From: an uncultured Desulfomonile sp.
GTDB taxonomy: Bacteria; Desulfobacterota; Desulfomonilia; Desulfomonilales; Desulfomonilaceae
Direction: 5' to 3'
Assembly (NCBI GenBank): GCA_903952205.1
Contig: CAJBEZ010000083.1
Span: 1-64,000 of the forward strand
DNA: 64,000 bases
In this document: piece by piece, positions 28,563-29,151 of the stretch
Layout of the letters: every line of letters starts with the position of its first letter
Position numbering within the stretch: position 1 is the first letter of the stretch
The notes under the pieces: model-generated
Told to the model about the DNA's origin: nothing
What the model saw: only the letters and a program-made list of their open reading frames with translations
The model's database searches: none
Program-made: the position numbers and the translations under genes

Positions 28563-28591
28563 TTGACACATGTACTGGCATAAGTTAAATT
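28563..28591 (+). promoter_or_regulatory. Sigma-70-type promoter
   Basis: TTGACA at 28563-28568, 17 bases, then TAAATT at 28586-28591: a perfect -35 and optimal spacing with an acceptable -10. Transcription would start near 28598, reading into the hairpin at 28613-28674. Confidence 0.6.
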
Positions 28592-28597
28592 AAATTA

Positions 28598-28682
28598 GCT
28601 AGTCATGTAATCGCCCGACGGAAGACCGTATCCTCCTTCTTTGGAGCCATACCCTTTTTTAATATCCGTCGGGCTTCTTTTT
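28598..28682 (+). ncRNA. Candidate small RNA or 5' attenuator, about 85 nt
   Basis: Directly behind a good promoter lies a 10-base perfect stem, GCCCGACGGA (28613-28622) with TCCGTCGGGC (28665-28674), followed by TTCTTTTT, a strong Rho-independent end. The 42-base interior holds a smaller hairpin CTCC-TTCTTT-GGAG (28633-28646) exposing TCCTCCTT, which is complementary to a Shine-Dalgarno sequence. The transcript would end 70 bases before the 28756 gene. Two readings fit: a free trans-acting sRNA, or an attenuator controlling the downstream gene. I know no Rfam family that it matches. Confidence 0.45.
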
Positions 28683-28755: not shown

Positions 28756-29151
28756 ATGAGAACCCTCCAAACCATAATTTTTGTAGCTCTTGTCGTTACG
28801 CTATCAAGCTTTGGCGGTGACATTCTTTCATGGCTGAGAGGAGTCTCCTACTTGTCAGGCGATGAGACCGAAATCAGTTCAAAACACGCCATGTTTTTGG
28901 GTCATTGGCTAGGAAGTTCGGGAACTATAATCGACATTAGTGGAGAGGGAAGGGCTGATTTTTATGATGGCAAATCTCAACTTCGATCGGCCCATCTGAA
29001 AATAAAGGGAGCCCAACTGATAATAACTCTTCCGGGGTTCCAGAAAGCGCTGACTATAAATGACCCTCCCAGATTGGGTCGAGATGGATTGTGGCGCATG
29101 CGTTTGGATGAAGAATTATTTGTTAGAGATTCTCATGATATAATGGTTTAA
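28756..29151 (+). CDS. Small membrane-anchored or exported protein, unknown
   Basis: 131 residues. A hydrophobic N-terminus (TIIFVALVVTLSSFGG) acts as signal or anchor. The rest is a compact beta-rich region (FLGHWLGSSGTIIDISGEGRA, then HLKIKGAQLIITL) that would lie in the periplasm and looks like a small lipocalin- or DUF-type barrel. No family is recognised. It begins 74 bases after the terminator-like hairpin of the candidate RNA, so its expression may depend on that element. Ends near a perfect hairpin at 29161-29185. Confidence 0.65.
   Translation: MRTLQTIIFVALVVTLSSFGGDILSWLRGVSYLSGDETEISSKHAMFLGHWLGSSGTIIDISGEGRADFYDGKSQLRSAHLKIKGAQLIITLPGFQKALTINDPPRLGRDGLWRMRLDEELFVRDSHDIMV

Follow-up and report, generated by a model that had tools for sequence, protein, structure and literature searches.

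The intergenic interval at positions 28563-28682 of a 64,000-nucleotide stretch of DNA from an uncultured Desulfomonile sp. (hereafter, the window) carries an apparent promoter followed by a hairpin and a terminator, raising the question of whether it encodes a small RNA (sRNA) with targets of its own or a leader that controls the gene downstream. An earlier annotation made from the letters alone (the sequence-only reading) had proposed a candidate sRNA with an exposed anti-Shine-Dalgarno (anti-SD) motif or, alternatively, an attenuator of a small exported protein. We favor, with a probability of about 0.6, a family-specific, Hfq-type trans-acting sRNA in which two pyrimidine segments, S1 and S2, would block the start regions of target mRNAs, the mRNAs of a family of outer-membrane-type proteins (OMPs) being the best candidates.

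Boundaries and distribution of the RNA gene

The near-consensus promoter described in the sequence-only reading was present, with a -35 box TTGACA (28563-28568) and a -10 box TAAATT (28586-28591) separated by 17 bases and matching the sigma-70-type consensus at 10 of 12 positions. TTGAC was identical across all 18 genomes of the window's family, the Desulfomonilaceae, a group related to sulfate reducers, and the relatives retained TA and the last T of the -10 box. A simple promoter scan was unconvincing by itself (6 sites vs 3.4 expected), and the candidate at 28563 tied with one other site for the best in the region. The predicted +1, G28598, lies 7 bases past the -10 box, giving a gene of about 85 nt (28598-28682, on the forward strand, as are all features of the RNA described here) that ends in the U-tract UUCUUUUU (28675-28682, reading TTCTTTTT). 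This terminator end, a possible Hfq site, was kept in nearly all 18 sequences.

In the alignment of the 18 genomes, the promoter spacer and the stretch between the -10 box and +1 were variable, and conservation restarted exactly at +1 (GCTAG) and ended abruptly past the T-tract. Conserved -35 and -10 boxes, a variable spacer and conservation confined to the span from +1 to the T-tract are the signature of an RNA gene. Single-base indels between the relatives' copies of the unit rule out a conserved reading frame, in agreement with the earlier statement that no protein is encoded. The unit thus combines what is expected of a stand-alone intergenic sRNA, namely its own promoter and an intrinsic terminator conserved together without a conserved frame, and 28598-28682 is almost certainly a real transcribed RNA gene.

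The unit was found as one copy per genome in 18/18 Desulfomonilaceae/Desulfomonile genomes. A blastn search of 60 related genomes detected it in every member of the window's family (E 1e-19 to 1e-63), with no convincing match outside the family. The Infernal search of relatives that had been suggested as a check was carried out with a covariance model, which matched 18/18 family genomes (E 1e-24 or better) and none of the 24 genomes of the sister family in the same class. Among 395 genomes of the phylum, the model recovered all five family members sampled, together with four matches of 22-26 bits; three of these four, lying outside the family (L051, L052, and L053), proved on reading to lack the unit, being either GC-rich and terminator-like or unrelated in some other way. 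When 84,980 named genomes were scanned for the pattern, 16 records were returned, which belonged to Desulfomonile, Desulfomonilaceae, or generically named Deltaproteobacteria, Syntrophaceae, and Thermodesulfobacteriota MAGs, plus one Oscillospiraceae. The Oscillospiraceae match (L080) and a viral one (L088) lacked the rest of the unit and were regarded as chance. No Rfam 15 family matched the unit at gathering or relaxed thresholds, nothing in the whole window matched Rfam at gathering thresholds, and a literature search found no paper on a small RNA in Desulfomonile. Judged from its sequence, the RNA is a new, previously undescribed sRNA family, of a known type and confined to the Desulfomonilaceae. 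Few sRNAs seem to have been described for the Desulfomonile group, to which it would add a deeply conserved family.

Predicted fold and independence from neighboring genes

The 85-nt unit had a predicted folding energy of -26.9 kcal/mol, compared with -14.5 +/- 2.7 kcal/mol for shuffled sequences (z = -4.6). As the sequence-only reading had stated, these bases close in a perfect 10-pair terminator stem, formed by GCCCGACGGA (28613-28622) and TCCGTCGGGC (28665-28674). Both the stem and the promoter, whose loss in close relatives had been named as evidence against an sRNA, were retained in all 18 family genomes. The stem encloses a 42-nt loop (28613-28674 including both arms) and was missed by a simple terminator scan (loop of at most 8 nt) because this loop contains a second hairpin. 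The inner hairpin, GUAU-C-CUCC-UUCUUU-GGAG-CC-AUAC (28628-28652), appeared in nearly all folds of the 18 sequences in the general form GUAU-C-CUCC-UUNUUU-GGAG-CC-AUAC. The conserved 5' tail GCUAGUCAUGUAAUC (28598-28612), a possible seed, was unpaired in nearly all 18 folds.

The anti-SD motif TCCTCCTT was indeed located in the interior (28631-28638), but it was not exposed there as had been supposed: its CUCC (28633-28636) was predicted to pair with GGAG (28643-28646) with an unpaired probability near 0, so that the motif is partly closed and the open positions are confined to the UUCUUU loop and the flanks. RNAalifold identified 17 pairs among the 18 sequences. None of the 17 showed a double change, and since the sequence is nearly invariant, the proposed examination of the stems for compensatory changes was uninformative either way. 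One terminator-stem pair was A-U, G-U or A.C depending on the relative, being broken (A.C) in three. The modeled structure is supported by thermodynamics and invariance, not by covariation.

In the window, the RNA is flanked upstream by a divergent gene for a methionine-aminopeptidase-like protein (Peptidase_M24) and downstream by c1 (28756-29151), which encodes a 131-aa exported-looking protein without a match in Pfam or NCBIfam and which is deleted in the close relative G001. Beyond c1 lie genes for a B12-binding radical SAM protein and then two Band_7 proteins. The presence of c1 downstream of the RNA, on the same strand, in 15/18 family genomes would fit the suggestion that the unit attenuates transcription of c1 or serves as its leader. 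However, three carriers of the RNA, G001, G007, and G008 (the last judged over 1.8 kb), lacked c1 downstream, with G007 keeping the RNA amid entirely different neighbors, and the distance to c1 ranged between roughly 70 and roughly 700 nt. Moreover, the 15-nt tail contained no complement to the 5' arm of the terminator able to form an antiterminator, and the folds of the 18 sequences offered no antiterminator alternative. Thus, neither the fixed gene linkage nor the mutually exclusive structures of an attenuator or riboswitch leader were found, and we consider this explanation highly improbable. The retention of the RNA where c1 is absent indicates that it is independent of c1, as an sRNA rather than an attenuator would be. 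With its own promoter, conservation from start to terminator, independence of neighbors and presence in 18/18 genomes, the sRNA reading was strongly supported, and 28598-28682 very probably encodes a trans-acting sRNA.

A protein-binding or structural RNA, such as a sponge or a ribosome-acting RNA, would be an alternative to an antisense regulator. Paired positions in the family alignment were as invariant as unpaired ones, which is unusual for a purely structural stem and can be counted in favor of such an RNA, yet this invariance would also be explained if S1 and S2 both pair. A CsrB/RsmZ-type sponge was ruled out, as none of the 18 family genomes searched encodes CsrA and both GGA motifs of the RNA were predicted to lie inside stems. 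Given also the lack of an Rfam match, this alternative appears improbable. An Hfq gene, which the host of an Hfq-dependent sRNA should encode, was found in 15/18 family genomes, including 8/8 of the good-quality ones.

Pairing segments and candidate targets

Following up a weak model match (L048-L050) revealed another conserved element, which proved to be a terminator in the 3'UTR of a gene for an outer-membrane-type protein. The encoded protein has a signal-peptide-like start and a C-terminal F, and matched the OMP model TIGR04219 below threshold, with no Pfam match. Five to six paralogues per genome were detected in the seven better genomes searched, and the family occurred in 18/18 family genomes vs 0/24 sister-family genomes, the same distribution as that of the RNA. 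The OMP leaders were strikingly conserved (..TTCGAGCTGGGAGGAAGGGTATG in OMP1, ..CTGGGAGGGAGGGTATG in OMP3, and variants), and S1 and S2, both nearly invariant among the 18 family sequences, were each complementary to their SD-AUG stretch, GGGAGG(A/G)AGGGUAUG. In the window's genome, the anti-SD segment S1 (CGUAUCCUCCUUCUU, 28627-28641) formed 15 contiguous pairs with the OMP3 start region GGGAGGGAGGGUAUG, and S2 (CAUACCCUUUUUU, 28648-28660) formed 13 with that of OMP1, GAGGAAGGGUAUG (G-U allowed in both).

Against a background of 1370 start regions, drawn with crude gene calls from 1.6 Mb (25%) of a single genome, G010, the pairing of S1 with OMP3 fell within the best 0-1.6% and that of S2 with OMP1 within the best 0.7-1.6% in each of seven genomes. 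Comparison with dinucleotide-shuffled sRNA cores gave p values of 0.004-0.061 for OMP3 over the seven genomes, values that are not independent between genomes; OMP1, 2, 4, and 5, taken singly, were mostly not better than the shuffles. The OMP pairing was not unique, as some other start regions scored equal or better, and no covariation was seen in the complementarity of OMP3 and OMP1 to the RNA. That OMP mRNAs are among the targets is a reasonable and suggestive prediction that we hold tentatively.

In the proposed mode of action, Hfq would bind the RNA via the U-tract at its U-rich 3' end, and S1 (CGUAUCCUCCUU) or S2 (CAUACCCUUUU) would pair with the stretch between the SD sequence and the start codon of target mRNAs, blocking ribosome binding and thereby repressing translation initiation. 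An open CCCUUUU or the U-rich loop could serve as a toehold, with the weak inner hairpin opening upon pairing; until then, this hairpin would keep the anti-SD motif closed, limiting nonspecific pairing to every SD. The best candidate targets would be the family-specific OMP mRNAs, whose leaders end in the stretch given above. Anti-SD pairing by the RNA is plausible, and we lean toward action on start regions via S1 and S2.

Alternatively, the RNA could act in trans with GCUAGYCWUGYAAUC, its open 5' tail, as the seed; the inner hairpin and the U-tract would then serve only as scaffold. The tail is conserved and predicted to be unpaired, and an outer-membrane-type gene of G010 ranked second for it among 1372 start regions, forming 10 perfect pairs in the interval from SD to AUG. 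However, this second-ranked gene was found in just 4/18 genomes and its site does not follow changes in the tail, exact tail complements elsewhere were mostly in the RNA gene itself or in unrelated places, and such a seed would not explain why S1 and S2 are invariant. A tail seed is therefore unlikely in our view, and pairing through S1 and S2 remains the preferred reading.

OMP 3'UTR elements and comparison with known systems

MicA/RybB-type envelope sRNAs of enterobacteria are short, Hfq-type, sigma-E-driven RNAs with a rho-independent terminator and a seed at the 5' end or in a loop. The Desulfomonilaceae RNA resembles them in being short and probably of the Hfq type, in its rho-independent terminator and in having OMP mRNAs as proposed targets, but differs in having a sigma-70-like promoter, an unrelated OMP family and targeting that is only predicted. 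If correct, the precise prediction of two segments directed at OMP start codons would extend post-transcriptional envelope control beyond the proteobacterial models. In its working, the RNA would be closest to the alpha-r14 sRNAs (NfeR1) of rhizobia, and also to MicA/RybB if the OMP targets are right. The alpha-r14 sRNAs have three hairpins with identical anti-SD motifs (CCUCCUCCC) in unpaired regions, and use these redundant motifs to silence mRNAs by targeting the translation initiation region (PMC10746234). Both are stand-alone trans sRNAs with an anti-SD motif; in contrast to alpha-r14/NfeR1, the Desulfomonilaceae RNA would form one composite hairpin with two non-identical segments and a partly paired motif, and the Rfam searches revealed no sequence similarity between the two.

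The OMP genes showed complementarities of their own. The loop of the OMP1 3'UTR terminator, CTCCCAGCTCGA, was perfectly complementary over 12 bases to the gene's own conserved leader at TCGAGCTGGGAG, immediately before the SD (G000:C37:204795-206090, L137 and L153; G010:C1:4483660-4484926, L143 and L157; L133-L147). Across the seven genomes compared, this loop-leader complement was 10-12 bases long, with shuffle maxima of 9-12, which suggests that OMP1 may be autoregulated by a 3'UTR sRNA or by 5'-3'UTR pairing. The paralogous OMP genes had differing 3'UTR hairpins, whose pyrimidine stretches again fitted their own leaders: in OMP3 (L164, L166-L168, L172, and L173), CCCTCCCAG fitted the leader CTGGGAGGG over 9-12 bases, and the corresponding stretches were ATACCCTCC in OMP5 (L177, L179, and L181) and CCCTCCTCC in OMP2 (L160-L163). 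Taken singly, the OMP2, OMP3, and OMP5 fits were weaker and did not in each case exceed the shuffles. Leader-complementary terminator loops may nonetheless be an autoregulation device across the whole paralogue family.

The nearest known counterparts of these 3'UTR elements are OppZ and CarZ of Vibrio cholerae, autoregulatory 3'UTR sRNAs whose 3' end is likewise complementary to their own mRNA (PMC7398697); unlike them, the Desulfomonilaceae RNA is preceded by a promoter of its own rather than forming the 3'UTR of a conserved gene. Similarly, the OMP mRNAs are predicted to pair their 3'UTR with their own leader as does the icaR mRNA of Staphylococcus aureus, in which a 3'UTR anti-RBS pyrimidine motif pairs with the leader (described in PMC7821165), whereas icaR represents a cis interaction in another phylum and the Desulfomonilaceae RNA is a stand-alone gene. 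The RNA and the OMP 3'UTR elements share a terminator-loop architecture, two segments of the RNA match the OMP leaders over their SD-AUG stretch, and purine-rich leaders are common to the paralogues. One may speculate, with considerable doubt, that the RNA is a 3'UTR element turned independent gene and, standing alone, forms the hub of an envelope circuit spanning the whole family, controlling in trans OMP mRNAs that also regulate themselves. The likeness between the terminator stems of the RNA and the OMP 3'UTRs (GCCCGACC..GGTCGGGC) was not taken as homology, because GCCCG..CGGGC terminators look, by eye, common in these genomes.

No conserved gene recurred among the sequences exactly complementary to the anti-SD block or the 5' tail. 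The non-self matches to the long complements AAGGAGGATACG and TTRCAWGRCTAGC lay in unrelated or coding places, and these candidates were rejected. The outer-membrane-type gene at G010:C1:5327082 (L263), whose SD-to-AUG interval includes 10 bases that perfectly complement the G010 tail, was attractive in that one genome and was set aside as a target, as it occurred in just 4/18 genomes and did not co-vary; the match of the same gene to the tail decays in G014 (L264), G007 (L265), and G008 (L266). In addition, TTGCATGGCTAGC at an apparent start codon in G001 (GGGGACTTGC-ATG-GCT-AGC; C20:1156-1168, L119) pairs with the 5' tail over 13 bases, two of them G-U.
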